Shown here: positions 11,850-31,531 of the stretch, piece by piece | Layout: every line of letters begins with the position of its first letter | Position numbering within the stretch: position 1 is the stretch's first letter | Assembly: GCF_019038415.1 (NCBI RefSeq) | Contig: NZ_JAFKRG010000001.1 | Location: forward strand, 1 to 33,855 | DNA length: 33,855 nucleotides | Direction of reading: 5' to 3' | Origin: Synechococcus sp. CCY 9618 | Lineage (GTDB): Bacteria > Cyanobacteriota > Cyanobacteriia > PCC-6307 > Cyanobiaceae | Notes under the pieces: model-generated | What the model was told of the DNA's origin: nothing | Seen by the model: only the letters and a program-made list of their open reading frames with translations | Databases searched by the model: none | Translations under genes and position numbers: made by a program

Positions 11850-11882
11850 GCGCGGCCCTCTGACGGTGCGGGGAGGGTGAGG

Positions 11883-12998: not shown

Positions 12999-13323
12999 AG
13001 GGGGTGCGGCGCAGGATCCACTCCTCCACCGGCGCACCGCCGATGATGTGCTCCAGCAGGATCCGCTCGATGCGCTCCGCGGTCACGCCGCCGTAGGTGA
13101 TGCCCTCGGGCCAGACCAGCAGCACCGGGCCATCGGCGCAGATCCGCAGGCAGTCGGCCTTGGTGCGAAGCACCACGCCCTCGGGGCGGAGGGGGTCCTC
13201 CAGCCCCAGCGCGCGGATCCGTTCCTTGAGCCGGCCCCAGCTCGCCGCTCCCACGGCGGGATCGCCGCAGAGGGCTTTGGTGGGGGTGGCGCAGAGCAGC
13301 AGGTGGTGCTGGACCCCGCTCAT
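12973..13323 (-). CDS. Thioredoxin-like [2Fe-2S] ferredoxin
   Basis: 116 residues with cluster-ligand spacing typical of the thioredoxin-fold 2Fe-2S ferredoxins: Cys11 and Cys19 near the N-terminus ([13 protein letters not shown]) and Cys58 and Cys62 in [20 protein letters not shown]. The [12 protein letters not shown] and [19 protein letters not shown] segments are also family-like. It probably carries electrons or senses redox state in the cytoplasm. Its ATG overlaps the dxr stop by four bases, so the two are translationally coupled. That pairs it with the MEP isoprenoid pathway, whose late enzymes IspG and IspH take electrons from ferredoxin; a functional link is inference. Confidence 0.87.
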
Positions 13324-15911: not shown

Positions 15912-17126
15912 TCAGATGGCGCCGACCGGCTGTGGGCCCGCCAGCGGCGCAGACCGTTGCCACGCCTGATGCACCAGGGGCCACACCGCTTCAGGCGGGA
16001 GGCCGTCCATGCAGGCGTGCCACTCCAGCGGACAGACGGGGTTGCGATAGTGGGCCTGGAAGCAGCCGCTGCAGTGGTGGCCGCTGTTGCCGATCCAGAC
16101 GTGCTCGGCCCGGGGGGCCCAGAGGTCACGGGGGCTGGCACCGATACCTTCGACGTCGGTACCGAACAGGGCCACGGTGGGGCAGCCTGCAGCCGCAGCC
16201 AGGTGCAGGGGGCCGGAATCCACGGCGATGCACAGGCGGCTGCGTGCCAGGGCGCCGACCAGGGCCGGCAGGGGAAGCTGACCGCGCAGATCCCGGATGC
16301 CGGAGCGGGTCAGCAGATCGCGCTCCAGCCGGTCTCCTGGATGTCGGGGTTCAGCGGGGGGCGGACCGCCGATCAGGCCGATGGACCTCGCCGGCAGACC
16401 CAGCTCCCGGCAGAGACGCTTGAGCAGCGCCAGCCAGCTCTCCAGGGGCCACAGTTTGGCGGGGCGTTCGCCGCTCACCGCGATCAGCACCGGTGGCAGT
16501 CCGGCCGGTGGCGGCAGAGCGGGAAGGTCCACCCGCTCGTAGTCGGTGTCGATCCAGGCCACGCGGCAGTGGAGCTCGCGGATGCTGTTGCTGCCGATCC
16601 AGCCGCGGTAGCGCTCCACAAGGTGGGGGCTGGCCCAGTGGGGATCCACAGCGAGGGCATGGAGGGGATGGTCGCCGGTGGGGATCGGTGCCGCCCCCAC
16701 CACGAAGCGGGGTGCCAGGGACCGGACCCAGGCGATGGTGTGGGGGGCGTGGCCATCGGCGTTGATCACCAGATCCACCGCCTGGCCCCCAGGAGCCTGG
16801 CCCTGTTGCCACTGCTCCAGGGCCGGCAGGGCGGCCGGCCCCAGCTCCGCCAGGGGAAGGCTGGCGTCGATCCAGGGGTTGAGGCGCTCCAGCTCGCGGG
16901 TGCGCCGGCTGCCCACGTAGGTGAGCCGGGCGCTGGGGTACTTGTGGCGCAGGCCCCGCAGCAGGGGTTGGAGCACCACGTAGTTACCCAGCTTGGCGGC
17001 GCCGAGCACCACGATCTGCGGGCGATGTCCAAGGGGATCGTTCCGAAAGCGCCGCATCAGCAGGCTTCGGTTGCCATGGCCCTGCCGATCGACGGATGGA
17101 TCGGGCTGCAGCAGGGGCAGGCTCAT
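15912..17126 (-). CDS. Glycosyltransferase family 9 (heptosyltransferase-like)
   Basis: 404 residues from ATG 17126. A GT-B layout is visible: an N-terminal Rossmann half with QIVVLGAAKLGNYVVLQPLL, and a C-terminal half with the donor-site stretch IAVSGERPAKLWPLESWLAL and the family hallmark CIAVDSGPLHLAAAAGCPTV followed by ALFG. It likely transfers a sugar to lipopolysaccharide or another surface glycan from an ADP- or UDP-sugar. A Cys-rich C-terminal part (HHCSGCFQAHYRNPVC) resembles GT9 proteins that end in a small Cys cluster. Its start overlaps the stop of the upstream GT2-like gene by four bases (ATGA), so the pair is translationally coupled. Confidence 0.88.
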   Translation of the reverse strand: MSLPLLQPDPSVDRQGHGNRSLLMRRFRNDPLGHRPQIVVLGAAKLGNYVVLQPLLRGLRHKYPSARLTYVGSRRTRELERLNPWIDASLPLAELGPAALPALEQWQQGQAPGGQAVDLVINADGHAPHTIAWVRSLAPRFVVGAAPIPTGDHPLHALAVDPHWASPHLVERYRGWIGSNSIRELHCRVAWIDTDYERVDLPALPPPAGLPPVLIAVSGERPAKLWPLESWLALLKRLCRELGLPARSIGLIGGPPPAEPRHPGDRLERDLLTRSGIRDLRGQLPLPALVGALARSRLCIAVDSGPLHLAAAAGCPTVALFGTDVEGIGASPRDLWAPRAEHVWIGNSGHHCSGCFQAHYRNPVCPLEWHACMDGLPPEAVWPLVHQAWQRSAPLAGPQPVGAI

Positions 17127-18124
17127 GGGCCGACGGGCTCGAGCTGCCACTGGCTGAGCCAGCGGCGCATCCAGGTGCCGGGGTGGGGATTCTCCAGGCG
17201 GCGCCGGCTGTGGAGCCAGAGGCAGTTGAGCAGGTAGGTGGTGCGGTTGCAGGCCGCCAGGCGCGGGTCGCTGGCGATGGTGGCGCTGGCGCTGGGATTG
17301 GCCTGCTGCTGGAGGCTCTGGAGGGCTTCCAGGGTGATCCATTCGACGGCGTCGCAGGCCCGCAGGCGCTCGGTGTAGTCGAGGTCCTCGCAGTAGGCCG
17401 GGTGGAAGTTGGCGTCGAACAGGCCCACCCGGTTCCAGGCTGCGGGGGTGATGGCGAAGGCGGAGAACTCCTGGGGCGCGGGCTGCAGCGGCAGGAACTG
17501 GGGCCGGGCGGGGTCGACGGTGGCGATCACGCGGGCCAGCACCCCTGGGGCGAAGACCACATCGTTGTTGACCAGAAGGGCGAAGGGCGCCTCGGGGAAG
17601 GCGGTGAGAATGGCGTTCCAGCTGGCCGCGACGCCCTGGTTGGCGAAGGGGCGGGCCACCCGCACCCGGCCGATGCCGGCGGGGGGCTCGTGCTCGAGCT
17701 GGACCAGCAGATGGGAGAGCGCACCGGCGTCGGCCAGGCCGCTGTCGATGCTGTTGTCGACGATCGCCAACGTCTCGACGGGCTGGTCAAGGCTGTCGAG
17801 CAGCCTGACCAGCAGATCGGGCCGATTGAGGATTGGAATCCCCAGCAGGGGGATGCCGGTGGGGCTGGAGGTGTGGGGAAGGATGGCGTCCAGCCGGTCC
17901 CAGAAATCGTCCACGGGGGTGGGATCGCCACTGAGGGCGGCGTACTGGGCCAGACAGCCCCAGAGGTCGGGATTGGTGAGTTGCCGGCGACTGGGGGCCA
18001 CAGGCAGGGTGGCGAAGTAGGCCCTCACCCATAGAAAAAGAAGGGACCTGGCCGCAGTCAGGTCCCTCGTCTCGATACAGGTGATGTAGTTGCGGGCGAA
18101 GCGGTGCTGATCCAATGCGACCAC
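17123..18124 (-). CDS. GT2-like glycosyltransferase
   Basis: 333 residues if GTG 18124 is used. The GT-A nucleotide-binding core starts near residue 90 (GIPLLGIPILNRPDLLVRLL), with VDNSIDSG, ANQGVAASWNAI, the metal-binding NNDVVFAPGVLARV and YCEDLDYTERLRA in the acceptor region. This is the GT2 (RfbF/rhamnosyltransferase-like) pattern. Sugar and acceptor are unknown. The start is in doubt: a terminator-like hairpin with T tract lies inside codons 19-31, in a stretch using rare CTT, TTT and CTA codons. GTG 18028 just after it is an alternative that removes 32 residues and leaves the catalytic domain intact. It follows the RTX-like gene by 17 bases. Confidence 0.82.
   Translation of the reverse strand: MVALDQHRFARNYITCIETRDLTAARSLLFLWVRAYFATLPVAPSRRQLTNPDLWGCLAQYAALSGDPTPVDDFWDRLDAILPHTSSPTGIPLLGIPILNRPDLLVRLLDSLDQPVETLAIVDNSIDSGLADAGALSHLLVQLEHEPPAGIGRVRVARPFANQGVAASWNAILTAFPEAPFALLVNNDVVFAPGVLARVIATVDPARPQFLPLQPAPQEFSAFAITPAAWNRVGLFDANFHPAYCEDLDYTERLRACDAVEWITLEALQSLQQQANPSASATIASDPRLAACNRTTYLLNCLWLHSRRRLENPHPGTWMRRWLSQWQLEPVGP
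18032..18067 (-). terminator. Rho-independent terminator-like hairpin with T tract
   Basis: On the minus strand AGGGACCTG (18067-18059) pairs perfectly over 9 bp with CAGGTCCCT (18050-18042) across an 8-base loop, and is followed by TCTTTTTCT (18041-18033 region). It lies 75 bases past the stop of the RTX-like gene, a normal place for its terminator, yet within the longest frame of the GT2 gene. This is the best terminator in the window by sequence. Confidence 0.7.
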
Positions 18125-18141: not shown

Positions 18142-18906
18142 TCAGCCGAAGGTGACGGAGTCGTTGGTGCTGGAGATGAACGCGCTGTTGTCGGCGTTGT
18201 AGACGTACTCCTCTCCACCGATGACCAGCCGATCCCCGTTGCCGGCCCCTGTGATGACGACACCCTTGCCAAGATCGGTCTTTGCACTGATGAAGACCGT
18301 GTCGATGTCGGAGTCCCCTCCCAGATCGATCCTGGTTTTTTGGACCTTGTCGTAGAAACTGATCTCGTCAGCCCCCTGACCAGCGGCGATGTTGACGTTC
18401 TTGACGGCTCCGCCGAAGAGCAGGGTGTCGTCTCCTCCGCCCGTGGCGAAGGTGGTGGAAGTGGTATTGCCGAGGATGATGACCTCGTCGGCACCACTGC
18501 CCGAGGTGAGGAACGAATCCTTGACCGGTCCGGAAATGACCTTGTTGTCGCCTTCCCCGAGGGAAACGAATCCATCCACCACATTCGTGGACAGCAGCTG
18601 GTCGTTGCCTTCCTTGAGATCCAGGGTCAGATCAGTGGACTTCCCGAAGAGGTTGACGGCATTGGCGTCACTGTTGCCGACGTAGGAGACGTCATTGGTC
18701 TTGCCGCTGATCGTCGTCTTGGTATCGCCGGAAGTGGGGCCCTTGATGTCCAGATTGTTGATGCTGCCCTTCGGCCCGGGGATGATCCCGCTCTGGATGA
18801 AGGTGCCGTTATTGGTTGTGAATACCTTGGCGCCTTTACCAGCGTCCTGGAAGACCGTCTCACCAACTTCTGGGACAAATATCGAAAGGGTCGCTGATGG
18901 AGCCAT
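18142..18906 (-). CDS. RTX-like calcium-binding repeat protein, probable type I secretion substrate
   Basis: 254 residues, acidic, rich in Gly, Asp, Asn, Thr and Ser, with no Cys and no signal peptide. From about residue 98 to 230 it contains seven GxGxD-like turns: EGNDQLL, GEGDNKVI, GSGADEVI, GGGDDTLLF, GQGADEISF, GGDSDIDTV and GAGNGDRLV, spaced 19-20 residues. This is one RTX-type turn alternating with a degenerate one, as in calcium-binding beta-rolls. The C-terminus ends in SVTFG, as T1SS substrates often end in small and hydrophobic residues. GC is clearly lower than neighbours. The window carries a full ABC/HlyD exporter pair 4-9 kb away. Calcium binding and export are inferred from the family. 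Confidence 0.75.
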   Translation of the reverse strand: MAPSATLSIFVPEVGETVFQDAGKGAKVFTTNNGTFIQSGIIPGPKGSINNLDIKGPTSGDTKTTISGKTNDVSYVGNSDANAVNLFGKSTDLTLDLKEGNDQLLSTNVVDGFVSLGEGDNKVISGPVKDSFLTSGSGADEVIILGNTTSTTFATGGGDDTLLFGGAVKNVNIAAGQGADEISFYDKVQKTRIDLGGDSDIDTVFISAKTDLGKGVVITGAGNGDRLVIGGEEYVYNADNSAFISSTNDSVTFG

Positions 18907-19204
18907 GGGAAGGCCTTAGGTGAGCTGATGTGTGCGCAGAGTAGTTCGGCGACTTGGCTGCATCTTGTCGCCTACGCATCATTTTCCTGCGATATCCTTC
19001 AAGAATCAGCATTCATTCATTTTGTGATTGCCAATTCACAGACTTGTTGGGCCAGGCTTAATGATCGACGCTGTCTGGGCTCAAAGGGGGCCGACTTTCT
19101 CCTGGTTCAAAAGGGATTCGTTAAGGCTTGAGGGACTTTCACGGCAACTCTTAAGGCGTCGGTGCCCTCCCGGGCCGCTGCTTGGCTGTGGTGCTCCGTT
19201 CAGG
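18907..19204. promoter_or_regulatory. Lower-GC divergent intergenic region upstream of the RTX-like gene
   Basis: This 298-base gap separates the divergent starts of the RTX-like gene and the TPR glycosyltransferase-like gene and should contain both promoters. It is markedly more AT-rich than the surroundings. TTAAGGC occurs twice, at 19121-19127 and 19151-19157, exactly 30 bases apart (about three helical turns), a possible binding-site pair. I found no convincing -10/-35 pair. A 67-codon open frame at 18928-19131 looks accidental. Confidence 0.45.
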
Positions 19205-20521
19205 ATGGGTTCCATGCCCGAGCTTCCCGCCGACCCGGAACTCCGCCTGCTGCTGGCGGAAGCCCGAGGGGCGGAGCACTCAAACGAGTGGCGTGAGGCC
19301 GCCTGCGTCTATCTGGACGCTGTTGAGACCCACCCTGAGAGTGCCGAGCTGGCTCTGCGCGCTGCCAACGCCCTCTGGCTTTCGGACCAGCCGGAGGAGG
19401 CCCTGGTGCTCTACCAGCGCGCCTCCTTCCTGGCATCGGAAAGCCCGGCCCCTCTGATGGGGGTGGGCAACTGTCTGCGGGATCTCAATCGCTTCGAGGC
19501 GGCAGACCGGGCTTTCCGGGCCAGCCGCACCCTTTTGGATTCCCCCGAGGTGGCCTGCAACCACGCCTCTCTGCTGATCGGCCTGGAGGCCTACGACGAG
19601 GCCTTCGCCCTCGCTGAACGTCGTTTCGAGCTTCCCGGCGCGGGGCCGTCTCCCAATGGTGGGGTGGCAGCCGTCCTGGCCGGTGCAGCGCTGCTGCGCG
19701 TCCGGAGCGAGCAGGGACTGGGCGATGGGCTCCAGTACCTGCGCTGGATTCCCTCCCTTCAGCACCACGCGGCGAGCCGCGGACAGTCGGTGGTGCTGGA
19801 GGTGGAGCAGACCCTGGTGGCCCTGCTGCAGGAGGGACTGGCCTGGCTCCCCACCCCCCCTGCCGTCCGCACCAGGCCTGAGGGGAGCACCGGGGACGGT
19901 GTGGTGAGTCTCCTGTCGCTGCCGGCGGTCCTGGGTGGTGCCCCCTGCCCCCAGCCCCCCGGTCCGGATGGTCGCGGCACCTATCTGCGCGGGCTGGGGG
20001 GGGCGGCGGCGGATCCGGGGGATGGGGACGGTCGGCGCCCACGGATCGGCCTCACCTGGGCCAGTGGCCGCAAGCTCTCCACTGGCTTCACCCTGCGGGA
20101 GTACCGCAAGCGCAGCCTCCCTGCTCCGGCGCTGCAGCGTCTGGTGGAGGGCGTGGTGGCTCTCGGCGCCGAGCCCGTGCTGCTCCAGCAGGGCGAGGAC
20201 CGGGAGATGGCGCTGCCGTTGAAGCCGCTTGTGGCCGATGAGATCGAGCCGCACGGAGATCTGCTGGCCACCGCACGGGTGCTCGCCACAACCGATCTGC
20301 TGATCACGGTGGACACGGCCATGGCCCATCTGGCCGGCGCCATGGGCCATCCCGCCTGGGTGCTGCTTCCCTTCAGCGCCGATCCCCGCTGGCTGCGGGA
20401 GCGGGACGACAGCCCCTGGTACCCCAGTCTGCGGCTGTTTCGCCAGCGCCCTGAGCGGGACTGGTCTCCCGTGGTGGAAGCCGTGCTGCTGGCCCTGACG
20501 CAGCGGTTCCGTCGCCGCTGA
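19205..20521 (+). CDS. TPR protein with GT9-like C-terminal domain
   Basis: 438 residues. The N-terminal third (about 15-135) has TPR-type helix pairs: EWREAACVYLDAVETHPESA, ALRAANALWLSDQPEEALVL, ALVLYQRASFLASESPAPLM and RFEAADRAFRASRTLLDSPE. The C-terminal half resembles GT9/heptosyltransferases: RPRIGLTWASG near residue 280, GDLLATARVLATTDLLITVD, then TAMAHLAGAMGHPAWVLLPF and SADPRWLRERDDSPWYPS. This fusion is often annotated as a TPR or glycosyltransferase protein, and may glycosylate a protein held by the repeats. ATG 19205 and ATG 19214 are both possible. The linker around residues 215-270 is Gly/Pro-rich. It diverges from the RTX-like gene. Confidence 0.82.
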   Translation: MGSMPELPADPELRLLLAEARGAEHSNEWREAACVYLDAVETHPESAELALRAANALWLSDQPEEALVLYQRASFLASESPAPLMGVGNCLRDLNRFEAADRAFRASRTLLDSPEVACNHASLLIGLEAYDEAFALAERRFELPGAGPSPNGGVAAVLAGAALLRVRSEQGLGDGLQYLRWIPSLQHHAASRGQSVVLEVEQTLVALLQEGLAWLPTPPAVRTRPEGSTGDGVVSLLSLPAVLGGAPCPQPPGPDGRGTYLRGLGGAAADPGDGDGRRPRIGLTWASGRKLSTGFTLREYRKRSLPAPALQRLVEGVVALGAEPVLLQQGEDREMALPLKPLVADEIEPHGDLLATARVLATTDLLITVDTAMAHLAGAMGHPAWVLLPFSADPRWLRERDDSPWYPSLRLFRQRPERDWSPVVEAVLLALTQRFRRR

Positions 20522-20543
20522 GCGCTGCACCGCCAGTCAGCGC
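20522..20543. terminator. Possible bidirectional terminator hairpin
   Basis: GCGCTG (20522-20527) and CAGCGC (20538-20543) form a 6-bp stem with a 10-base loop between convergent glycosyltransferase genes; the GT4 stop codon overlaps it. No T tract, so the call is weak. Confidence 0.3.
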
Positions 20544-21760
20544 AGCACCCGCAGGCTGCGAATCAGACCTTCATAGGTCCTGGCGGCGCGGTTGACCTCA
20601 TAGCGGGCGGCGATGGTGGCCCGACCCGCTTCGGCCATGGGGGCGAACGCCATCGGGTCGGCCAGCACGGCTGTGAGCCAGGCGGCCAGCCGATCGGGCT
20701 GGTTGAACGGCACGAGCAACCCGTTGTGGCCGTGCCGGATCACTTCGCTGACGGGAGGGTTGTCGGAGCCCACCACCAGGGCGCCGCAGGCCATCGCCTC
20801 CAGCAGGCTCCAGGACAGGGCGTAGGGATAGGTGAGGTACACGTGGGCGGCGCTGATCCGGAAGAGGCTCAGCAGGTCCCGGTGGGTCAGGGGCGGCAGG
20901 AAATGGAGGCGCTCCAGGGGCAGGCGATGGCCCAGCAGGGCCAGCAGTTCTCCCCGATGGCCGTCACGGTGGGCCGATGGAGCGCCATAGCCCGTGCCGT
21001 TGCCGCCGACGATCACCACCCTGGCGTCCGGTCGGGCGGTCAGCACCTCCGGCAGGGAGCGAAGCAGGGTGCGGAAGCCTCGCAGGGGTTCGAGGTTGCG
21101 GCTGGCGAAGGTGATCACCGGATCGCCTTTTCGGAGGGTGGGCCCCGATGGCAGCTGGAACGCCTGACCAGCGGAGCCCGGTGTCGGGAGCGGCGGCAGG
21201 GCGATGCCCTCATGGAGAACGTGAAAGCGTCCGCGCAGATGGGCCGGGAAGGTGTCGCGCTGGAAGAGGGTGGGCACCACGCAGGCATCGGCTTCGGCGA
21301 TCGCCGCCAGCCCCATCAGATTGCGTCGTCGCCACTGGGCTCGCAGCGCCGGGGGAGGGGCCCCCAGATCGGCGTCGAAGCCGTAGCCCAGCAGCCGGGG
21401 AGCGGCATGGAGCTCGGGGTAGGCGATCAGGACCGCTTCGGGCCAGACATCCGCCAGATGCAGGGCTTCTCCCCAGCCGCTGTGGGCGAGCACGGCATCG
21501 GGGACATAGCCCTGCTGCCGCAGCTGCAGGCACCGTTCCAGCACCTGCTGGGCGCGCCGCAGGCTGGTTTCCAGCACCGGATCGAGCAGGTCGTCGGCCA
21601 GCTTCGGGGGGCTCCAGTCGTAGTGCAGCCGGGGGCTGCCGGCGGCGGTGGCCCGGGGGGAGGCTCCGAGGCCAAGGACGCGATGGCCGAGGCGTTCGAG
21701 GGCGGGAGTCAGATCACGAAACTGGCCAGGGTGATTCTGATGGATCAGCAACAGTTCCAT
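20537..21760 (-). CDS. Glycosyltransferase family 4
   Basis: 407 residues. The start MELLLIHQNHPGQFRDLTPA is typical of GT4 enzymes that begin with an acceptor-side Rossmann fold. The donor half has FASRNLEPLRGFRTLLRSLP, RVVIVGGNGTGYG, and the E-x7-E element in SWSLLEAMACGALVVGSDNP followed by PVSEVIRHGHNGLLVPF. It is cytoplasmic with no membrane spans. Likely transfers a hexose from a nucleotide sugar to a surface glycan or glycoprotein; donor unknown. It diverges from the duplicated-domain gene across 46 bases and converges on the TPR gene. Confidence 0.9.
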   Translation of the reverse strand: MELLLIHQNHPGQFRDLTPALERLGHRVLGLGASPRATAAGSPRLHYDWSPPKLADDLLDPVLETSLRRAQQVLERCLQLRQQGYVPDAVLAHSGWGEALHLADVWPEAVLIAYPELHAAPRLLGYGFDADLGAPPPALRAQWRRRNLMGLAAIAEADACVVPTLFQRDTFPAHLRGRFHVLHEGIALPPLPTPGSAGQAFQLPSGPTLRKGDPVITFASRNLEPLRGFRTLLRSLPEVLTARPDARVVIVGGNGTGYGAPSAHRDGHRGELLALLGHRLPLERLHFLPPLTHRDLLSLFRISAAHVYLTYPYALSWSLLEAMACGALVVGSDNPPVSEVIRHGHNGLLVPFNQPDRLAAWLTAVLADPMAFAPMAEAGRATIAARYEVNRAARTYEGLIRSLRVLR

Positions 21761-21806: not shown

Positions 21807-22937
21807 ATGTCGCTCATGAGTCGCTTGTTTGGGCGCCGCGATACGGTGAGCTGGAGTGAAAGAAAAGGGGAGAATGATGGTATCGGCCTTGAAACCCTGG
21901 TGAGTGATCCTGGTCAGCCGACGATCGACCTGTCGCATCGGCCCCGGATCACCCCCTGGTCAGCGGCGCGGCTGAGCACGATCTTTCGCGACTACGCCGC
22001 TGATCCTTCCGCCGCACGGCTGGCGGAAGCGCGTCTCGCCCGCCAGTGCCTGTCACAGTTCTGGTTGAACGCACCGATCGATTCCCTGGAGTTTCTTTAT
22101 GCATCAGAGATCGGTCAGTGCTACCGGACTCTGATCACCACAGATCTGTCTGCCCAGTCTCTTCTGCGTGATGAGGAGACATGGAAGGACCTGCTCTGCC
22201 AGCGACTTTTCTCTGGTCTGGAGCGCCCGGAGACGGCTAATCTCCTGTTGGCGGTGATGCCCTATTTCCGCCGGGGCAAGATGAAGGTGCGCCACTGCGA
22301 CAAGAACGTTCCGAGTTGGCTCCTGGAGGACTACGCGAGTCTGTTTGAGCCTGAACTGCTGCCGCGGTTGCGTCAGCCCAGCATCACGGTGCGGAAGGCC
22401 TTGGCACCTGTGGGTCACCGGGCCGAACGGATCGTGGATCCGGCCGCCGGTCCGGCCCTCGAGGCGGCGTTGCCGGGGCTTCCGCGTCTGGCCTCCCACA
22501 CCGGTGAGCAGGCCCTGCAACTCACGGCTAGCGAGGAGTTCCTCACTCGCCTGAGCGGCCTGGTGAACCTCTTTGAGATCGATCCCACCGATGCGGACAT
22601 TCTCCAGGAGCTGGCGAGCTTCCGCCGTCAGATCGGTCAGATCTGGCTGGACACCCCTGATGAACAGGTCAAGGTCCTGTTTGATGCACCCTTCGGGGAG
22701 GCCTACCGCAAGTTGTTGCGCAGCGGCTATGTGGCCGTGCCGCTGGCGGACCAGGACCGCCAGCTGCGGCTGGATCTGGCCCGCTACGTCCGCAACATGA
22801 CCCGACCCAAGGCGCTCCAGGTGGTTCTGGCAGTGCTGCCCTTCTTCCCCCCGGGAAAGATCGAATTCGCCGGCGGCGAACAGTTCATGCCCCAGTGGCT
22901 GCTGGGGACCCTGCCGACGCTGTATGTGAAGGCCTGA
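21807..22937 (+). CDS. Unknown protein with two copies of a ~125-residue domain
   Basis: 376 residues, mostly alpha-helical, no signal peptide or membrane span. Residues about 55-180 and 247-374 align along their whole length: RLSTIFRDYAADPS with RLSGLVNLFEIDPT, then FWLNAPIDSLEFLYASEIGQ with IWLDTPDEQVKVLFDAPFGE, CYRTLI with AYRKLL, LLLAVMPYFRRGKMK with VVLAVLPFFPPGKIE, and VPSWLLEDYASLF with MPQWLLGTLPTLY. The offset is about 193 residues. I do not recognise the family. It lies among glycosyltransferases and next to a type I secretion operon, so a role in assembling, regulating or exporting the surface product is possible. ATG 21807 is the first start; ATG 21816 is an alternative. Confidence 0.78.
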   Translation: MSLMSRLFGRRDTVSWSERKGENDGIGLETLVSDPGQPTIDLSHRPRITPWSAARLSTIFRDYAADPSAARLAEARLARQCLSQFWLNAPIDSLEFLYASEIGQCYRTLITTDLSAQSLLRDEETWKDLLCQRLFSGLERPETANLLLAVMPYFRRGKMKVRHCDKNVPSWLLEDYASLFEPELLPRLRQPSITVRKALAPVGHRAERIVDPAAGPALEAALPGLPRLASHTGEQALQLTASEEFLTRLSGLVNLFEIDPTDADILQELASFRRQIGQIWLDTPDEQVKVLFDAPFGEAYRKLLRSGYVAVPLADQDRQLRLDLARYVRNMTRPKALQVVLAVLPFFPPGKIEFAGGEQFMPQWLLGTLPTLYVKA

Positions 22938-22972: not shown

Positions 22973-23239
22973 TCATTCGTGGAACTCCTTCCACAGCAGC
23001 CAGTAGGTGAGGTAGCCGAGCAGGGGCAGCAGCACCATGGGGGCCAGGGCGAGCAGGCCCACCACGGGCGGCAGTTGGCTCAGCAGCCAGAGCAGCCCCA
23101 GTCCATAGGTCGCAAAGGCCAGGCCGATGCCCACCGGGCGCCGCAGCAGGCGCTCCCTGCAGCGCAGGCGCCAGGCCTTGAAGCGCCGCCGGCGCCGTTC
23201 CTGCGCCGGCACGAAGCGCCACCAGTCACCCCGGGGCAT
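22973..23239 (-). CDS. Small two-span membrane protein at the end of the secretion operon
   Basis: 88 residues: a strongly basic N-terminal part (PAQERRRRRFKAWRLRCRER, about residues 11-30), then two hydrophobic helices (GLAFATYGLGLLWLL and VVGLLALAPMVLLPLLGYLT) and a short acidic end WKEFHE. It begins five bases after the HlyD stop, so it is surely co-transcribed with the exporter. No family recognised. The helical hairpin with a basic cytoplasmic face would fit an accessory subunit of the ABC/HlyD complex; this is inferred from position alone. Confidence 0.72.
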   Translation of the reverse strand: MPRGDWWRFVPAQERRRRRFKAWRLRCRERLLRRPVGIGLAFATYGLGLLWLLSQLPPVVGLLALAPMVLLPLLGYLTYWLLWKEFHE

Positions 23240-23244
23240 GGCGC

Positions 23245-24759
23245 TCAGTGGGCCCGCAGGCGCTGGAGATTGCGCCGCTGGTCCTCGAACAGGCCGGTGA
23301 GCAGGCTGATCACACGCCGCTCGCGCAGCTTGATGTCAGCGGTGAGGGCCATGCCGGCCTGGAGGGGCACCGTGCTGGCGTTGGGCAGGGGGATGTTCTG
23401 GCGATCGAGCTGCAGGATCACCGGGAAGTGGAGGCCTTCGGCCTGGGTGCCGAGGACCTTCGTCTGCTCCTCTGGGGTGAGGGCATCGGAGCCGATGCGC
23501 TCCACCCGGGCCGGTACGTAGCCGAAGTCGTTGGCGGGGAAGGTCTCGATGGAGATGTCGGCGGTCTGGCCCACCTGCACGAAGCCGATGGCCTTGTTGG
23601 GCAGGTAGACCTTGGCCCGCAGGGAGTCCTGGGGCACCACCTTGAGCAGGGGGTTGGCTTCGTTGGCGCCCACCACGCTGCCGGCGCCGGGCACGATGTC
23701 GAACACCACGCCGTCGCTGGGGGCGGTGAGCACGCCGTACTGGATCTGCTGGCGGGCCTGGCGGATCTGGGCGTCGAGGTCGCTGATCTGGCGCAGGTTG
23801 GCCTCGATGGTGCTGCGCAGTTCCACATCGGTGCCGGAGCCGGTGTTGACCAGCTGGGAGCGGAGCCGGGCGATCTCGCGCTCCTCCTCGGCCACGCTGG
23901 TGCGCAGGTCCTGCATCTTGTTGCGGGCCTCGAGCAGCTGCACCTCGCTGACGGCGCCGTCGCGGACCAGGGACTGGTAGCGGCCTTCGATGTCGGTGTA
24001 GATGCGCAGGGATTCGCGGTAGCCGGCCAGGCGGGTGGTGCTCTTGGCCAGTTCCTCGCGGGCCGCATCGAGGCGGCTGTTGAGCTCCCGGGCGCGGTCG
24101 CGCAGCTGGCTGAGCTGGTTGGCTGTGAGGCCGGCGGTGGCGGCCTCCTCGCCGAGGGTGGCGCGGGCGACCCGGTTCTCGTTGAGCAGGCGCTCGCGGA
24201 TGCTCTCGGCGGCGGCCAGCTTGCTGCGGGGCTCGCGCAGGTCGAAGCGGATCAGGGGCTGGCCTTTCCTGACCTCCTGGCCCTCCTTCACCAGCACCTC
24301 TTCCACCACGCCGGGCACCGGGGAATCCACGTCCTTGACGGTGCTCGAGGGCTCAAGCTTGCCGGGCACGGGGATGGTTTCGGCGATGGGCGCGGTGACG
24401 CTCCAGAGGCCGAGGGCCGCCACGCCACCCACCCCGGCCCAGAGCAGCAGGCTGGAACTGCGGCGGCTCTTGCGAAGCACCACCGTTTCGCTGAACGACC
24501 AGTCGCGTGCTCGGTCGGAACCGTTGCCTGCCAGGTCGCCTCCGAAGGGATGGTCGCCGGCCGCGGCAGAACCGGGGTCGGCTGAGGGCGTCGGCGACGG
24601 GGTGGCCGGGGGACCGGATGCCCGGCCCACCAGATCGACGCGGACGGCGGCCACGCCGTGACGGCGGTGGGCCCGGGGCGAGCGCAGCCAGCCGACGCCG
24701 TCCTCCAGGAAGGCCACGAGCCGGGAGGCTGGATCGGAGGAGCGGGGCGGGGAGGCCAT
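23245..24759 (-). CDS. HlyD-type membrane-fusion (periplasmic adaptor) protein
   Basis: 504 residues. An unusually long cytoplasmic N-terminus of about 100 residues, Pro/Ala-rich in the middle, precedes one membrane helix (SLLLWAGVGGVAALGLWSVT). Then come VPGKLEPSSTVKDVDSPVPG, the start of the biotinyl-lipoyl-like domain, VVEEVLVKEGQEVRKGQPLI, a long coiled-coil hairpin (about 170-345) and the returning lipoyl half GVLTAPSDGVVFDIVPGAGS, ending in a beta-barrel domain. This is the adaptor linking the ABC exporter to an outer-membrane TolC-like channel. Its ATG shares one base with the stop of the ABC gene. No TolC gene is in the window. Confidence 0.93.
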   Translation of the reverse strand: MASPPRSSDPASRLVAFLEDGVGWLRSPRAHRRHGVAAVRVDLVGRASGPPATPSPTPSADPGSAAAGDHPFGGDLAGNGSDRARDWSFSETVVLRKSRRSSSLLLWAGVGGVAALGLWSVTAPIAETIPVPGKLEPSSTVKDVDSPVPGVVEEVLVKEGQEVRKGQPLIRFDLREPRSKLAAAESIRERLLNENRVARATLGEEAATAGLTANQLSQLRDRARELNSRLDAAREELAKSTTRLAGYRESLRIYTDIEGRYQSLVRDGAVSEVQLLEARNKMQDLRTSVAEEEREIARLRSQLVNTGSGTDVELRSTIEANLRQISDLDAQIRQARQQIQYGVLTAPSDGVVFDIVPGAGSVVGANEANPLLKVVPQDSLRAKVYLPNKAIGFVQVGQTADISIETFPANDFGYVPARVERIGSDALTPEEQTKVLGTQAEGLHFPVILQLDRQNIPLPNASTVPLQAGMALTADIKLRERRVISLLTGLFEDQRRNLQRLRAH

Positions 24760-27716
24760 CAGCTGAGTCCCTCCTGGTTCTGGCTGCGGTACAGGGCGTA
24801 GTACCAGCCGCGCAGCTGCATCAGCTGGCGGTGGTTGCCCTGCTCCATCACCGCCCCCTGGTCCATCAGCACGATCAGGTCGGCGGGCTGGACGGTGGTG
24901 AGGCGATGGGTGATGAAGAAGACGGTCCGGCCTCGGAAAGCCTCGAACAGGTTGATGCAGACCTGGCGTTCGGTGGTGGCATCGAGGGCGCTCGTGGCCT
25001 CATCGAGGATCAGCATGCGGGGGTTCTGAAGCACGGCCCGGGCCAGGGCGAGGCGCTGGCGCTGGCCGCCGGACAGGCCGGCGCCCCGTTCGCCGACGCT
25101 GGAGTTGTAGCCCTGGGGCATCTGCATGATGAAGTCGTGGGCACAGGCGATGCGGGCGGCGCGGACCATCTCGGTGGCGCTGGCATCGGGCTTCACCATC
25201 AGCAGGTTGTCCCGGATGGTGCCGTCGAAGAGGAGCGAATCCTGCGGCACCACACCGATCTGGCGGCGCAGGGAATACAGCTCCACCTTGCCGATGTCGA
25301 GGCCGTCGATCAGCACGCTGCCGCGCTCGGGCGGGTAGAACCTGGACAGCAGCTTCAGCAGGGTGGACTTGCCGCTGCCGGAGCCGCCCACCAGACCCAC
25401 GAAGGAACCGGCGGCGATCTCCAGATTCACCCCGTCAAGCACCAGGGGCCCCTGGTCGCGGAAGCGGAAGGCCACATCGATGAACTGCACCCGGCCCTGG
25501 AGGGGGGGCAGGGGGATGTTGCCAGCCTGCTCCTGGGGTTGCTCGGTGGTGCGATCCACCACATCGGCCACCATGCGCAGGGCCTGGGTGTTGAACTGGA
25601 AGTCCTGCCAGGTGCTCACCAGCTGCACCAGAGGCTGGTTGATGTAGCCGGAGAGGATGCGGAAGGCGAACAGGGCGCCGATGCTGAGCTTGCCCTGGAA
25701 GATCAGCCAGATCGCCACGGCGATGACCACCAGCTGGCCGGCGTTGCTGAGGAACGTGGAGAGGTTGGCGATCGCCTCGCGGGTCACCTTGAGTTTGAAG
25801 TCTTCGCCGATGTAGGCCGCGTAGCGGTCCTGGAATTCCCAGCGGGTCTTGAGCTCGGCGTTCTGGGATTTGATCGTCTGGATGCCGGTGATGGCTTCCG
25901 TGAGGAAACTGGCGGCCCGCACGCCCTGGGCCATGGTGCGATGGATCTGGCCGCGCACCAGGGGGTTGCTCACCAGGGCCACCACCAGGATCAGAGGCAG
26001 GGTCGCCAGGGTGACCAGGGTGAGCAGGGGACTGATGGCGAACAGGATCGCCAGGTAGAGGAGGCTGAAGACGAAGTCCACCAGGGTGGGCAGGGTCTTG
26101 CCGAGCAGGAAATCGCGCAGGCGGTCGAGCTGGGAGAAGTAAAAGGTGATCTGCCCCACCGGCCGGGAGTCGAAGAAGCCCTGGGGCAGGCGCACCAGCT
26201 GGTCGAGAATGGTGGCTTTGGCGTCCTGGTCGATCCGGTTGGCCAGATCGGTGAACACGAAGCTGCGCAGGGTGCGGAAGACGCTTTCCAGAAGGGTGGC
26301 GAGCAGCATCACGGAGGCGATGCCTGCGAGGGCGCCGAGGTTGCGGCTGGCCAGCACGCTCTGGAGCAGGACGAGCAGGCCGAGAGGAAAGACCACCCTG
26401 AGGGTGTTGATCACCACTGAAGCCACCAGCACCTCGATCAGTTCACGGCGGTGCTGGTTGAGGAAGGGGGCGTACCAGCTCCAGTCGAAACGCCGTTGCT
26501 TGGCATCGGCCTTGCGATCGAAGAGGAGCAGCTCCACCATCCCTCCCTCATGGGTGATGAGCTCCTCGGCCGGCACCAGCAGGGCACCGATCTCGGCCTC
26601 CAGCAGCCGGGCGCGGCCATCGGGCTCGACGCCGTCGAGCAGGCCGAAGTGGCCGTTCTGGAGGAGCAGCGCCGGGGCGGGCACCCGGGCCAGACGACTG
26701 GCCGGCACGCGGGTCAGCACCACCCGCAGACCAAGGGTGTCCATGATCTGGCCGATGTTGACCAGGTTGAGGCTGTCCTGTCGCTGCAGGATCGCATCCA
26801 CCTGGTCGGCGAGGGCATCGCGGTTGAGGGGCAGGCCGAAGTAGTCGGCCAGGGACTGACAGACGGCGATCGGCACCGCCCGGGGCCCGCTGGCCCGGGG
26901 GAGGGCGAGCCGCCCGCCGCCATCTCCGCTGCGTCGGGGCGGTGGTTCGAGGCTGGCGGCGTAGACAGTGGCGGGAGCCGCCACCCCGGCGAGGACGGCG
27001 GGAGTGAGGGGATCGGCGCCGAGGGTGATCGGTGCTTCGGCGTCACGGGGGATCGCCAGGCCGACCAGCCGCAGCCAGGGAGCATCGGGTCCGATGGGCC
27101 GCAGCGGGCGTGGAGTCCAGGGTTCGGCCAGGGGCAGGCCGCTGCTGGCGAACCAGCGGAAGCCTGGCGGCAGGCCCATCTCCGGGGGCGCCCCCGGCAG
27201 CAGGCTGCGCAGCCGCACCTGCTCGGGGGGCACCGGCCAGTCGTCGAGCAGGGCTTCGCCGAGGGGATCACGCCGGGCCAGGGCCAGCAGCACGGCGTGG
27301 AGCTCGGCCGGGCTGGGCTGGTTGGCGAACCAGGCGCCGAATTCGGGATGGCCCGTCAGCAGTTCGCGGAAGGCGGCGGTCGGGAGCTCCAGCGCCTCCA
27401 CTTCGGTGGTGGCCCGCAGGTGCTCGCAGGGATCGCGACGCAGCAGGCCGGCCCAGCCTGCGAGGGCGCCTGGGGCGAGTCTCTCGATGGTGCGCAGGCC
27501 ACGGCCGCTGGGGCTGGGTCCGAGGCTGCGCAGCTGGCCGCTGCAGAGCAGCAGCACGCCATCGGGCATCACATCCGGGCGCAGCACCGTCTGGCCGATG
27601 CGGAATCGACGCGGCTCCAGCAGGGCGTCGATGGCTTCGATCCGGGCAGAGGGAAGCCGGTCGAAGGGGGTGAAGTCCTTGAGCAGGCCGCTCAGGGCCC
27701 GGGGCGAGGAGGTCAT
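24759..27716 (-). CDS. Type I secretion ABC exporter with cNMP-binding-like and C39-like domains
   Basis: 985 residues. Order: a cyclic-nucleotide-binding-like domain (about 15-130, RPDVMPDGVLLLCSGQLRSL); a linker; a C39-peptidase-like domain (about 275-395) with AVCQSLADYFGLPL and QNGHFGLLDGVE; six membrane helices (about 425-700); an ATPase domain with Walker A GGSGSGKST at about 777-785, signature LSGGQRQRLA at 881, Walker B MLILDE at 901 and the switch THRLTT. The usual DCG catalytic Cys is not visible upstream of Cys285, though His356 is kept, so the C39 domain is probably a non-cleaving substrate-docking CLD as in HlyB. The frame is open 31 codons further, but ATG 27716 overlaps the preceding gene by ATGA. 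Confidence 0.93.
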   Translation of the reverse strand: MTSSPRALSGLLKDFTPFDRLPSARIEAIDALLEPRRFRIGQTVLRPDVMPDGVLLLCSGQLRSLGPSPSGRGLRTIERLAPGALAGWAGLLRRDPCEHLRATTEVEALELPTAAFRELLTGHPEFGAWFANQPSPAELHAVLLALARRDPLGEALLDDWPVPPEQVRLRSLLPGAPPEMGLPPGFRWFASSGLPLAEPWTPRPLRPIGPDAPWLRLVGLAIPRDAEAPITLGADPLTPAVLAGVAAPATVYAASLEPPPRRSGDGGGRLALPRASGPRAVPIAVCQSLADYFGLPLNRDALADQVDAILQRQDSLNLVNIGQIMDTLGLRVVLTRVPASRLARVPAPALLLQNGHFGLLDGVEPDGRARLLEAEIGALLVPAEELITHEGGMVELLLFDRKADAKQRRFDWSWYAPFLNQHRRELIEVLVASVVINTLRVVFPLGLLVLLQSVLASRNLGALAGIASVMLLATLLESVFRTLRSFVFTDLANRIDQDAKATILDQLVRLPQGFFDSRPVGQITFYFSQLDRLRDFLLGKTLPTLVDFVFSLLYLAILFAISPLLTLVTLATLPLILVVALVSNPLVRGQIHRTMAQGVRAASFLTEAITGIQTIKSQNAELKTRWEFQDRYAAYIGEDFKLKVTREAIANLSTFLSNAGQLVVIAVAIWLIFQGKLSIGALFAFRILSGYINQPLVQLVSTWQDFQFNTQALRMVADVVDRTTEQPQEQAGNIPLPPLQGRVQFIDVAFRFRDQGPLVLDGVNLEIAAGSFVGLVGGSGSGKSTLLKLLSRFYPPERGSVLIDGLDIGKVELYSLRRQIGVVPQDSLLFDGTIRDNLLMVKPDASATEMVRAARIACAHDFIMQMPQGYNSSVGERGAGLSGGQRQRLALARAVLQNPRMLILDEATSALDATTERQVCINLFEAFRGRTVFFITHRLTTVQPADLIVLMDQGAVMEQGNHRQLMQLRGWYYALYRSQNQEGLS

Positions 27717-28543
27717 GGGTTCCCGTCCTCCTCCAGAAGGGCGAGCATGGCGTCGAGGGCCGGCAGGGGCTGGCCCTCCAGCAGGGTGTCCACCCGCTGC
27801 TCGAGCCATGTGTTGAAAAGCTCGCGCAGCATGAGGTTCCTGTTGGCCTCGTCCAGGGAGGCGGGCAGCAACTGTTCGAGCCGCAGCACCACCCAGCTGG
27901 CGCCGGCCTGAAAAGGGTCGAACAACTCGCCCTGCCGCCCCCGACGCAGCCGGCCCACCAGGGTCTGGTGACCGGCGGCCAGGGATACAGGGCCGATCTG
28001 GCCGCGGCTGTGGCGCTCGGGGCCACTGGAGTGAAGCGGCGCCAGCTCGGGGAAATCGGCTTCCCCCTCCGCGATCTGCTGGTGAAGTTCGGCGGCGAGC
28101 TCCTCGCTCTCGAGGCGCAGCAGGGAGTACACCACCTGGTCGAGGGCGGGTTTGCGCTGCAGGAAGCGCACCTCCACTTCCGCGCCCCAGCGTCGCCGGC
28201 AGAGGCGCTGCAGTCGCTGCTCCTGGGTGGCCAGGATGCGGAGATCCTCGAAGGTCAGGCCGCGGCTGGCAAGCCAGGCGGGTACCTGCTCATCGGCGTT
28301 GACCCCGCGGCGCTGGAGGAAGGTCCCCATCAGATCCTTCTCCTCGCCGGCCGGAAGGGGGATGGCGCGAACCAGCTGATCCAGCACCCAGGCGCGGGCC
28401 AGGGCACGGGCCTGGCCCTGCTGGCGGATCAGCCGGTTCAGCTCCGAGATCGCCATCCAGGGGCGCCCGGGGGGAAGTTCCACCACCGCCGGCTCGCGGA
28501 GCCCCGAGAGCGGCTCGGGCAGGGCCTGGCGCTGGGCGGTCAT
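27713..28543 (-). CDS. SurA/PpiC-like peptidyl-prolyl isomerase-type protein
   Basis: 276 residues. N-terminal helices (ISELNRLIRQQGQARALARA, VLDQLVRAIPLP) resemble the chaperone part of SurA/PpiC proteins, followed by a parvulin-like region with HSSGPERHSRGQIGPVSLAA (normally ...G..G.v..), LFDPFQAGASWVVLRLEQLL and a C-terminal helix. There is no signal peptide, so it is predicted to be cytoplasmic. Proteins of this type often sit beside cNMP-ABC/HlyD exporters in cyanobacteria and may hold the substrate export-competent. Parvulin active-site residues are degenerate, so isomerase activity is uncertain. It overlaps both neighbours by ATGA. Confidence 0.78.
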   Translation of the reverse strand: MTAQRQALPEPLSGLREPAVVELPPGRPWMAISELNRLIRQQGQARALARAWVLDQLVRAIPLPAGEEKDLMGTFLQRRGVNADEQVPAWLASRGLTFEDLRILATQEQRLQRLCRRRWGAEVEVRFLQRKPALDQVVYSLLRLESEELAAELHQQIAEGEADFPELAPLHSSGPERHSRGQIGPVSLAAGHQTLVGRLRRGRQGELFDPFQAGASWVVLRLEQLLPASLDEANRNLMLRELFNTWLEQRVDTLLEGQPLPALDAMLALLEEDGNP

Positions 28544-31476
28544 GGGGTCTCCTCCCGGGCCTGGCGCCGTCGGGGGTGGCCATGGGGCAGCTGCAGACGG
28601 TCGAGGGCATCCGCCATCAGGGCGAGGCCGCGCTCGCGGCTCCAGGTGCCACGGGCGTAGGCGAAGGCGGCCGCGGCCATGGCGCTCCAGGCTCGATCGT
28701 CGCTGTCCAGATGCAGGACGGCGTCGCGCCACTCCCCGGGACTGCCGGCGATGAGAACTTCCTGCCCATGGCGCAGACCGGTGGCTTCGGCCGCCAGGGG
28801 GCTGAGCACCTGGGGGATCCCATGGGCGGCGGCGGCGACCACTTTTCCCTTGAGGCCGGCGCCGGAGCGCAGGGGAGCCAGGAAGACGCGATGGCGGGCG
28901 TACACCTCGGCGGGATCGGCCACCCAGCCTGCGGGGACCACCCCCGGCTCGCCGCCCCAGCGGCTGGCCAGTTCAGGGGTCAGGCCACTGCCGTACAGGT
29001 GGAGCCGCAGCTGGGGTCGCTGGCGGTGCAGGTCGGGCCAGACCTGTTGCAGAAAAGCCTCCACACCATCGCGGTTGGGGGGGTGGCCGTAGCTGCCGAG
29101 GAAGGCGAGGCCGCTGCGCCCCTCAAGGGGGGCAGGCGCTACGGGCCCCTGCACCACCCAGGGGCAGGGGGCGGTGGCGGCCTCGCCGAGGGTTTCGGCC
29201 TCGATCACGGCCCTCTCCACATCCGAATAACTGAAGGTGAGGTGCACCTCGCGCATCACCGCCAGCTCCTGGCGCTTCACCTGCTCGACCGCTTCAAGCG
29301 CCCGGCGGGCCGCTTCACCCTCGAGGCCCTCGGCCCGGGCGGCTCGCAGCTGGCGCAGATGGTGCAGATCGGCATTGCAGAACAGCAGCCGGGCCTGCGG
29401 AGCATGGCGACGGATCAGGGGCAGTGCCTGGGAGGCGACGGTGTATCGGGTGAGATAAATCAGTTCGAACTCCCGCCCCCGCTCCGACAGGAACTGCTCA
29501 AGGGAAAGCACGAAGGGGGCATGGATCAGCTCGACACCACGGCGCTGGAGGTCTTCGCTGTAGCTGCCGAGCCAGGCGAGGTTGAGCGGCAGGAGGGTGA
29601 CCTTCCATCCGAGGGCCTGGAGCAGGTCCATCTCGACAAGGGCGGCATGGCTGCCGGCATCGCGGTCGGGCCGCGGGGTTTCCTGGTCGATGCAGAGGAC
29701 GCGGCCGCAGATGCCCCGGTCCTTGATCGCTTCGGCGGCGGCGTGGCTCGGCTCGGTGGGGCCCACAAAGGCGTCGGCCCACTTGCGCTGGAACAGCGGA
29801 GCATGGATCCCCTGGTAACGCTTGAGGCCGGTGGCCGCTGCCGTGTCGGTGCCGCAGCTCATCCCCTCATGGTGGATCACCCTGGCGAGGGCGGCATAGC
29901 GCACCGAATGGCCGGCCTGGCGCACCTTGAAGGCCAGATCGGTGTCTTCGAAGTAGGCGGGGGTGAATTCGGGGCTGAATCCGCCCAGCTCATTCCAGAG
30001 GTCCAGGCGGATGGCCAGGGCGGCGCCACTGACGTAATCCACCTGGCGGCCGTAGGCGAAGCGTGGGTCGTGGGGATTGCCGCCGCGGCCGTAATTCCAG
30101 GGTTCACCGTTGCCCCAGACGATGCCGCCCGCCTCCTGGAGCCTGCCATCGGGGTAGATCAGCTGGGCTCCCACCATCCCGGTGTCGGGCCAGCGGGTGA
30201 AGGGGTCGAGCAGCTCCTCCAGCCAGATGGCGCAGGGCTCGGTGTCGTTGTTGAGCAGCACCAAAAAGGTGCCGCGAGCCGCAGCGGCGCCCGTCTGGCA
30301 GGCCCGGTTGAAGCCGAGGGCCGCTTCATGGCGGATCAGGCGGATTCCAGGGGCCTCCCGCTGCAGGGCGTCAGCGGTGCCGTCGCTGGAGCCGTCGTCG
30401 ACCACCACGATCTCGTAGGAGATACGGGTGGGGGCATAGGCGATCGCCGCCAGGGCCCGGCGGGTGACCGCGTACTGGTTGTGCACCGGGATCACGATCG
30501 TGACCAGGGGGTCGGCCGCCACCGAAAGCCGCAGGGGCTGACGGGGGCCCCGGACGCCACCCGGCCCGGGTTCGTCGTCCCCTGCAGGAGCAGGAGACCC
30601 TTCACTGCGCCGGAGGGGCTGCTCGAGCAGGCGCTGCAGCAGGGGCAGGTCGGCCGGGAGGGGGGTGCCGTCGGCATCGGCCCAGGCCAGCCAGGTGCGC
30701 AGGCTGCGGTAGTGCTCCCTGGCCAGGGGCGAGAGCTGATCGGGAAATGGCGGCCGTCCGTGCTCCTGCAGGGCGGCCCAGGGGGTGAGGTGAAAGGGGA
30801 CCAGCTCGTAGCGCTGGTCGAGCACCCGGCCGGGGACCGTCTCCAGCTGGAGATGGTGGACATCGCCATCGCAGAGGTCGGTGGGCAGCACCGCCTCGAA
30901 GGGCCAGGGCCCCTCCGGAAGGGGCTCAGGGGGCACCACCGACAGCCGGACGGCCCCGTCGAGACGGAGCTGAAGGGCTTCCGCGCCCCGGCCCCAGCCC
31001 TGCAGGCTTGTCGCCCGCAGCTGGGTCAGACCTCCGTCCAGGATGGGACCGTACTGGCGCTGGTGGGCGATCTGTCCGTAGGTGGCCGCATCCAGCCGCA
31101 GGGGACTGCCGGCCAGCTCCAGACCCCCCTCGGCAACGGTGAGCACCCGCAGAACCAGCCCGCGGGAGAAGGGGGGCAGGGGATGCTGGGGTCCCCATCG
31201 GAAGCGGAAGCCACAGGGAAGATCGATGCCTTCGGCCGGGAGGTCGGGCCGCTCCAGGTCCGCGGTCAGTTCGGAGATGGTCAGCCGCAGGGCCGGTTGC
31301 AGCAGGTCCTCGAGGATCAGCAGCAGCCTCAGGGGCTCGGCCAAGGGCCGCAGGGGCCAGTTGCAGGCCCATCCGCTGAGCCCACCGCTCTGGCTCCAGC
31401 CCTCAAGCTGCCCCACCAAGCTGCCGCGACGCAGTTCGGACAGGGTGCTGGACAGCTCAGGGAGCATCGCAGCCAT
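28540..31476 (-). CDS. Two-domain GT2/GT4 glycosyltransferase (978 aa)
   Basis: Residues about 15-110 and 150-235 look like two related beta-rich modules (EGWSQSGGLSGWACNW, later TSLQGWGRGAEALQLRLDG) common at the N-terminus of large bacterial glycosyltransferases. A GT2 domain follows (about 322-560): VTIVIPVHNQYAVTRRALAA, VVVDDGSSDGTADAL, the metal site LLNNDTEP, and FEDTDLAFKVRQAG. The C-terminal third is GT4-like: LAFLGSYGHPPNRDGVEAFL, LHLYGSGLTPELA, LAPLRSGAGLKGKVVAAAAH. Both halves look complete, so it may add two sugars. It is first in the operon that carries the exporter. ATG 31467 is an alternative start. Confidence 0.9.
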   Translation of the reverse strand: MAAMLPELSSTLSELRRGSLVGQLEGWSQSGGLSGWACNWPLRPLAEPLRLLLILEDLLQPALRLTISELTADLERPDLPAEGIDLPCGFRFRWGPQHPLPPFSRGLVLRVLTVAEGGLELAGSPLRLDAATYGQIAHQRQYGPILDGGLTQLRATSLQGWGRGAEALQLRLDGAVRLSVVPPEPLPEGPWPFEAVLPTDLCDGDVHHLQLETVPGRVLDQRYELVPFHLTPWAALQEHGRPPFPDQLSPLAREHYRSLRTWLAWADADGTPLPADLPLLQRLLEQPLRRSEGSPAPAGDDEPGPGGVRGPRQPLRLSVAADPLVTIVIPVHNQYAVTRRALAAIAYAPTRISYEIVVVDDGSSDGTADALQREAPGIRLIRHEAALGFNRACQTGAAAARGTFLVLLNNDTEPCAIWLEELLDPFTRWPDTGMVGAQLIYPDGRLQEAGGIVWGNGEPWNYGRGGNPHDPRFAYGRQVDYVSGAALAIRLDLWNELGGFSPEFTPAYFEDTDLAFKVRQAGHSVRYAALARVIHHEGMSCGTDTAAATGLKRYQGIHAPLFQRKWADAFVGPTEPSHAAAEAIKDRGICGRVLCIDQETPRPDRDAGSHAALVEMDLLQALGWKVTLLPLNLAWLGSYSEDLQRRGVELIHAPFVLSLEQFLSERGREFELIYLTRYTVASQALPLIRRHAPQARLLFCNADLHHLRQLRAARAEGLEGEAARRALEAVEQVKRQELAVMREVHLTFSYSDVERAVIEAETLGEAATAPCPWVVQGPVAPAPLEGRSGLAFLGSYGHPPNRDGVEAFLQQVWPDLHRQRPQLRLHLYGSGLTPELASRWGGEPGVVPAGWVADPAEVYARHRVFLAPLRSGAGLKGKVVAAAAHGIPQVLSPLAAEATGLRHGQEVLIAGSPGEWRDAVLHLDSDDRAWSAMAAAAFAYARGTWSRERGLALMADALDRLQLPHGHPRRRQAREETP

Positions 31477-31531
31477 GCTGGAATCGATGGGCGAACCCTA
31501 TTGCCGCTCTGCTGCTTTGTCTCGTTCCGCC

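Follow-up and report, generated by a model that had tools for sequence, protein, structure and literature searches.

A tandemly duplicated helical domain of picocyanobacteria that recurs as a module of large glycosyltransferases

Background

To our knowledge, and in line with PMC10507012, those GT41 enzymes whose function has been established act on proteins. Polysaccharide synthesis is a frequent task of GT2 and GT4 enzymes, and GtfA is itself a GT4 enzyme. In AaNGT, the all-alpha domain, which precedes the GT41 core, recognises the acceptor peptide (PMC10507012). GtfB, which carries DUF1975, works beside GtfA as a chaperone that binds the adhesin ahead of its export (PMC6973325). SwmA, the RTX S-layer protein of Synechococcus WH8102, appears to be glycosylated (PMC3034196).

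Here we analyse a window of 33,855 nucleotides from Synechococcus sp. CCY 9618 (assembly GCF_019038415.1, contig NZ_JAFKRG010000001.1, positions 1 to 33,855), in which an ORF on the plus strand (21807-22937, with an ATG at 21807 and a stop codon that ends at 22937) encodes a protein of 376 aa, P0001, that contains two tandem copies of a helical domain. The partnership of this domain, and of P0001, with glycosyltransferases is well supported. The reading that we prefer, to which we give slightly better than an even chance, is that P0001 works in the cytosol as a non-catalytic subunit, either acceptor-binding or scaffolding, in the glycosylation of an RTX-like surface protein before its export.

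Results and discussion

P0001 contains a duplicated helical domain

Residues 27-180 of P0001 align with residues 224-373 with 27.7% identity (blastp, E 2.3e-17), comparison of the N-terminal with the C-terminal half by phmmer gives 6e-18, and comparison of profiles of the two halves by hhalign gives a probability of 99.9 and an E of 1.3e-32. The local alignment score of the halves is 155, as compared with a mean of 30.3 (SD 4.7, maximum 54) for 1000 shuffles of the second half, none of which came near 155. AlphaFold2 predicts the same order of helices in both halves. The original prediction, made from the sequence alone, was of an unknown protein generated by duplication of a helical domain, and this is borne out: the halves are homologous, and the hhalign match and the shared helix order are those of related rather than unrelated folds. 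The offset between the repeats, 193-197 residues, agrees with the ~193 first given. The predicted repeat length of ~125 residues was too short, as about 150 residues can be aligned, with a core of about 130. The core of copy 1 (21966-22352, plus strand) and that of copy 2 (22539-22925, plus strand) match profile A3 with E 2.8e-43 and 1.3e-37, respectively, matches that arise partly by construction, since the 52 rows from which the profile was built include both copies. Across these 52 domain copies, R29, L44, G53, P118 and W120 (second-copy numbering, alignment A3) are at least 90% conserved, and the motifs named in the original prediction are among the conserved ones.

P0001 exemplifies the long form of the family, which has a short basic, amphipathic N-terminus (21807-21842, plus strand, in P0001). 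Charge counts in the aligned rows gave a net positive charge for the first 12 residues in 31 of the 34 long-form sequences with an aligned start, and this sequence feature could possibly provide contact with a membrane. Inspection by eye revealed no secretion signal in P0001.

The domain has no close counterpart in the databases searched

No Pfam family was matched above cut-off by P0001 or by its long-form relative at locus L042, and no NCBIfam model was matched by P0001 at up to E 1. The Pfam scan of P0001 gave no match to PF13844, consistent with the protein having no GT41 catalytic core, and no match to DUF1975 at up to E 1. Classification of P0001 as a TPR protein was considered and rejected, the sole match being to TPR_17 with E 0.13 and 13 bits against a cut-off of 24.4. 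The profile PF18071, for the HMW1C-type domain, matched none of 20 genomes and also none of 14 control genomes. Viral contigs searched with P0001 contained no relative, and a literature search, with most subscription journals outside its coverage, found no description of the helical domain in the titles and abstracts listed. Going by the Pfam and NCBIfam scans and these literature searches, the domain is undescribed.

The AlphaFold2 model of the whole protein, made with 11 orthologues, is of moderate quality (pLDDT 67.1, pTM 0.42) and has a similar order of helices twice. The model of a single domain (22512-22934), for which the input was 24 rows comprising both copies of 12 proteins, is all helix with pLDDT 88.5 and pTM 0.85, a confident prediction, and a single copy has no clear PDB match. 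Foldseek identified no known fold: the best E was 0.37 with the full model as query and 1.4 with the single domain. The best VIA-align matches, with Z 7.0 for the full and 6.5 for the single-domain model, are both to chain A of 6vae, a Fanconi ID complex, and reach a level that the tool describes as common when the model is made of helices. Among the fold matches listed there are no HMW1C-like entries, an absence still compatible with an all-alpha kinship. In sequence searches of the PDB, profiles A1 and A3 gave best E values of 0.014 and 0.11, and no sequence match was found between the domain itself and the HMW1C-like PDB entries. When a profile that extends from the domain through the GT41 part was used, the PDB matches were in the catalytic part, apart from weak ones; the domain part weakly matches designed helical repeats, with E 0.0011 at best. 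Profile comparisons with the GT41 portions of the fused cyanobacterial enzymes gave matches to 3q3e and 8p0q.

A stand-alone family in picocyanobacteria

Relatives with 66-72% identity to P0001 are encoded at 11 loci, in records titled Cyanobium, Synechococcus, Microcystis elabens, Aphanothece and uncultured cyanobacterium. Sampling of 201 genomes from the same family gave a match in 50 at E 0.01, a few of them near that limit, and profile A1, built from the stand-alone family, matched 42 of the 388 sampled genomes of the class. The family has two forms, the long form and a short form that measures ~300-330 residues between stops, with the protein at L056 extending further upstream. One stand-alone gene (L073 9122-10035, genome G112) is split into frames of 210 and 106 aa, the result of either a broken gene or a sequence error. 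Single-copy versions, sought beside clusters similar to that in the window, do exist as frames of 156 aa (L074) and 152 aa (L075). Their surroundings (L074 8889-11556, L075 7005-9430) are, however, dissimilar, with a GT2-like gene and a conserved gene that has no assigned family; L074, L075 and L076 have almost no tblastn matches to the genes of the window.

Occurrence of the domain within large glycosyltransferases

Profile A1, although derived only from stand-alone proteins, retrieved copies of the domain that are fused to enzymes. With fused copies included, profile A3 matched 31 of 292 sampled genomes of the phylum, one of them weakly (1.2e-4) and outside the class; the sampling was within this phylum, plus plasmids and viral contigs. 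Loci L111 to L149 contain 48 domain-bearing frames, each with 1 to 5 copies, L149 being one stand-alone relative. A GT41 match is present in 30 of the 46 domain-bearing proteins scanned with Pfam (10 of 21 plus 20 of 25), a count to which related genomes contribute near-duplicates and in which one frame (L144) is in two pieces. Of 26 frames measured, 23 have 89-92 residues between the domain and the GT41 core and the others 96, 110 and 110; from coordinates, the spacing is about 91-92 in L125, L130 and L143 and about 106 in L145. In other arrangements, arrays of the domain are behind the GT41 part (L121), three copies follow a GT4 (L111), or copies come after GT2 or methyltransferase parts. 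In genome G218 (L114 81-5465), a one-copy GT4 frame ends at a stop and is followed by a three-copy frame, where relatives have a single frame. Frames with two or more GG.G.D motifs occur in 3 of the 38 loci L111 to L148 (L137, L142 and L146), with no background rate for comparison.

Among plasmids, there is one matching record, pMB01 of Acaryochloris sp. 'Moss Beach'. Its protein (L160 10804-16482; 1892 aa, annotated as a TIGR03032 family member) has, in order, DUF4915, the domain (395-507, E 7.3e-30), GT41 (600-969), TPR repeats and a second GT41 (1498-1852). In this one protein, the domain thus precedes the first GT41 core and TPR repeats take the equivalent place before the second. Divergent from this gene is a gene for a 2863-aa protein with FG-GAP, Calx-beta, DUF4347 and RTX repeats. 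A literature search for DUF4915 or TIGR03032 found nothing.

Fusion also links the domain to GT4 enzymes. A GT4 of type c14, the marine neighbour of the stand-alone gene, is clustered close by in 10 of the 17 short-form loci. When c14 was sought in 10 genomes with fused proteins, five had a single close homologue (39-40% identity, E 3.7e-64 to 5.7e-79), and in all five this is the GT4 part of a domain-bearing frame; as they come from one family and two genera, these five genomes are not independent. Further matches, at 1.8e-15 or weaker, are in G247 and G446, and three of the 10 genomes have no match. G247, a sixth genome of the family to which those five belong, has an array with no c14 GT4. 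The GT4 encoded in the window is of a different type, c3, which has matches in 17 of 20 genomes, the best being in frames of 407-549 aa in 14 cases and of 238, 693 and 2880 aa in the other three. Judged by match coordinates in these 20 genomes, with the 2880-aa frame left unread, no c3 GT4 was seen fused to the domain.

These arrangements can also be read in a way that leaves out the protein acceptor. The domain could be an oligomerisation or membrane-docking scaffold that clusters glycosyltransferases of polysaccharide or glycolipid synthesis and never touches a protein acceptor, as might be suggested by the copies fused to GT2, GT4 and methyltransferase parts besides GT41, by the tandem arrays, which suit a scaffold, by the basic, amphipathic N-terminus of the long form and by the frequent role of GT2 and GT4 enzymes as polysaccharide builders. 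We consider this explanation unlikely, although it is the foremost of the alternatives, as GT41 enzymes of known function act, so far as we are aware, on proteins, the domain replaces TPR repeats beside GT41, and the stand-alone gene repeatedly has RTX or secretion genes next to it.

Relationships of the domain copies

A quick tree was constructed from 81 of 231 domain copies (below 55% identity after thinning, at least 105 residues) with 133 columns, and 39 of its 78 inner branches were left open. All 19 first copies, from long and short forms, are in one group (support 94), so that the first copies have a common origin in both forms. The second copies are split over more than one group (5 changes): long-form ones are separate from short-form ones, and the latter are placed among the array copies of large enzymes; the tree gives no settled history for the second copies. 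The two single copies join the short-form second copies (98) and have long branches and an odd composition. In a clade of 25 rows (99), 22 are directly before a GT41 core. The P0001 copies are outside this clade.

Gene neighbourhood in the window and in relatives

P0001 is flanked by genes for glycosyltransferases and for type I secretion. Upstream and divergent is a GT4 (20537-21760, minus strand; PF12000, 3.7e-35; PF00534, 1.3e-20), preceded by a TPR-GT9-like protein (19028-20521, plus strand; PF01075 and TPR below cut-off), a 254-aa Gly/Asp-repeat protein, beta-roll-like by eye (18142-18906, minus strand; no Pfam match, including to RTX families), a GT2-like protein (17123-18124, minus strand; PF00535, E 0.0041, below cut-off) and a GT9-like glycosyltransferase (15912-17342, minus strand; PF01075, E 2.6e-15). 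Downstream, all on the minus strand, are genes for an 88-aa hydrophobic protein (22973-23239), an HlyD-type membrane fusion protein (23245-24759; PF13437, 4.8e-17), a type I secretion ABC exporter (24759-27809; PF00664, PF00005, PF00027), a parvulin-type peptidyl-prolyl isomerase, the true start of which is uncertain (27713-28732; PF00639, E 6.1e-5, above cut-off), and a two-domain glycosyltransferase, GT2 followed by a GT1/GT4-type part (28540-31476; PF00535, 4.2e-24; PF13692, 3.3e-19). The PF00027 match of the exporter (E 1.3e-9, above cut-off) is an N-terminal cyclic-nucleotide-binding domain. The isomerase gene, between those of the exporter and the GT2-GT1 enzyme, has its cluster represented in 19 of 50 gene-called relative loci. 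A DXP reductoisomerase gene (13320-14570; PF02670, PF08436, PF13288) is ordinary metabolism beside the cluster. The frames at 10350-13037 and 31460-33181 were set aside as antisense on the grounds of their composition and the lack of a Pfam match. GT41 matches in the genome of the window are on another contig (37), in a 711-aa frame.

This neighbourhood recurs. In 51 loci of up to ~21 kb each, some cut at contig ends, tblastn with the genes of the window detected the TPR-GT9-like protein in 40, the GT4 in 37, the ABC exporter in 32, HlyD in 31, the GT2-GT1 enzyme in 25, the repeat protein in 17, the 88-aa protein and the GT2-like protein in 16 each and the GT9-like protein in 10, counts that denote presence in a locus rather than adjacency and include paralogues. 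For the GT4, the tblastn count is preferred to that from the gene caller (10 of 33 long-form and single-copy loci), in which long antisense frames suppressed the GT4. Short-form loci differ, in that a gene of an RTX-type cluster (c8) is present in all 17 (L056, L058-L073) and in none of the 33 other gene-called loci, whereas the exporter genes cluster in one of the 17. At L069, an RTX gene with PF00353 repeats (6.4e-20) is followed by a GT41 gene (6e-31). By BLASTP, the 88-aa neighbour of P0001 does not resemble the small protein encoded next to the marine gene.

As P0001 adjoins the genes for HlyD (matched in 31 of the 51 loci) and the ABC exporter (matched in 32), it might be a chaperone or targeting factor devoted to a protein of the type I secretion route, acting on the exporter and having no part in glycosylation. 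We regard this as improbable given that 16 of the 17 short-form loci have glycosyltransferases but no clustered exporter genes and that the domain is, elsewhere, fused to enzymes. The original prediction had proposed, from the position of the gene, that the protein serves the surface system structurally or as an adaptor. A part in the structure of the cell surface would be in keeping with location in a surface-protein and secretion cluster, but given that enzymes contain the domain and that inspection by eye showed no secretion signal, this half of the proposal is not upheld and we consider it very improbable. The adaptor half is supported, as an interpretation, by the glycosyltransferase, secretion and RTX neighbours and by the occurrence of the domain inside glycosyltransferases elsewhere.

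Proposed role of P0001

In the reading that we prefer, that of an acceptor-binding subunit, the module would bind the protein acceptor and perhaps dock enzymes, as do the TPR repeats of OGT and the all-alpha domain of HMW1C-like enzymes; its position before the GT41 core, as for the all-alpha domain of AaNGT, makes such a role of the module likely. P0001 would hold an RTX-like surface protein while the neighbouring GT4, TPR-GT9-like and GT2 enzymes glycosylate it, and the type I exporter would then send the glycosylated protein out. As a separate subunit beside a GT4, P0001 would thus work as GtfB does beside GtfA. The candidate acceptors are the 254-aa repeat protein of the window, a putative export substrate, and the RTX protein of the marine loci. 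The duplication, the family, the enzyme fusions and the recurrence of the neighbourhood are observed; binding of the acceptor, its identity and glycosylation before export are all inferred. As several enzymes accompany most copies in the large proteins, the partner is not unique. The acceptor-binding reading is weakened by the window GT4 being of a type, c3, with no fusion seen, by the location of GT41 on another contig and by the position of the P0001 copies outside the GT41-adjacent clade.

More tentatively, and with some doubt, these observations may point to an undescribed cyanobacterial pathway for cytosolic glycoprotein synthesis, in which a helical module replaces TPR repeats and selects giant RTX-type proteins, and the two-copy subunit of picocyanobacteria serves several enzymes and couples them to type I export. 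The proposal gives a testable role to a domain for which the Pfam and NCBIfam scans found no model, and it puts forward candidates for the enzymes, the partner subunit and the acceptor in surface-protein glycosylation in cyanobacteria. If the module does bind acceptors, it would be a further kind of GT41 acceptor module, in addition to TPR repeats and the all-alpha domain.

Comparison with described systems

Like the HMW1C-like N-glycosyltransferases, the fused cyanobacterial enzymes have a helical, non-TPR domain before a GT41 core, whereas P0001 has two copies of the domain and no catalytic core. Relative to OGT and SPINDLY, the domain occupies the position of the TPR superhelix, and the one Acaryochloris protein uses both, but the domain is not a TPR by sequence, having only sub-threshold similarity, and in P0001 it stands alone. 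SwmA is an RTX surface protein, and the short-form relatives of P0001 have an RTX gene nearby; the repeat protein of the window has 254 aa and no Pfam RTX match. GtfB differs from P0001 in having DUF1975 and in operating with the accessory Sec system, P0001 being all-helical and encoded beside type I secretion genes; what P0001 may share with the GtfA-GtfB system of serine-rich repeat adhesins is a likeness of working rather than of sequence, namely a glycosyltransferase accompanied by a separate subunit.
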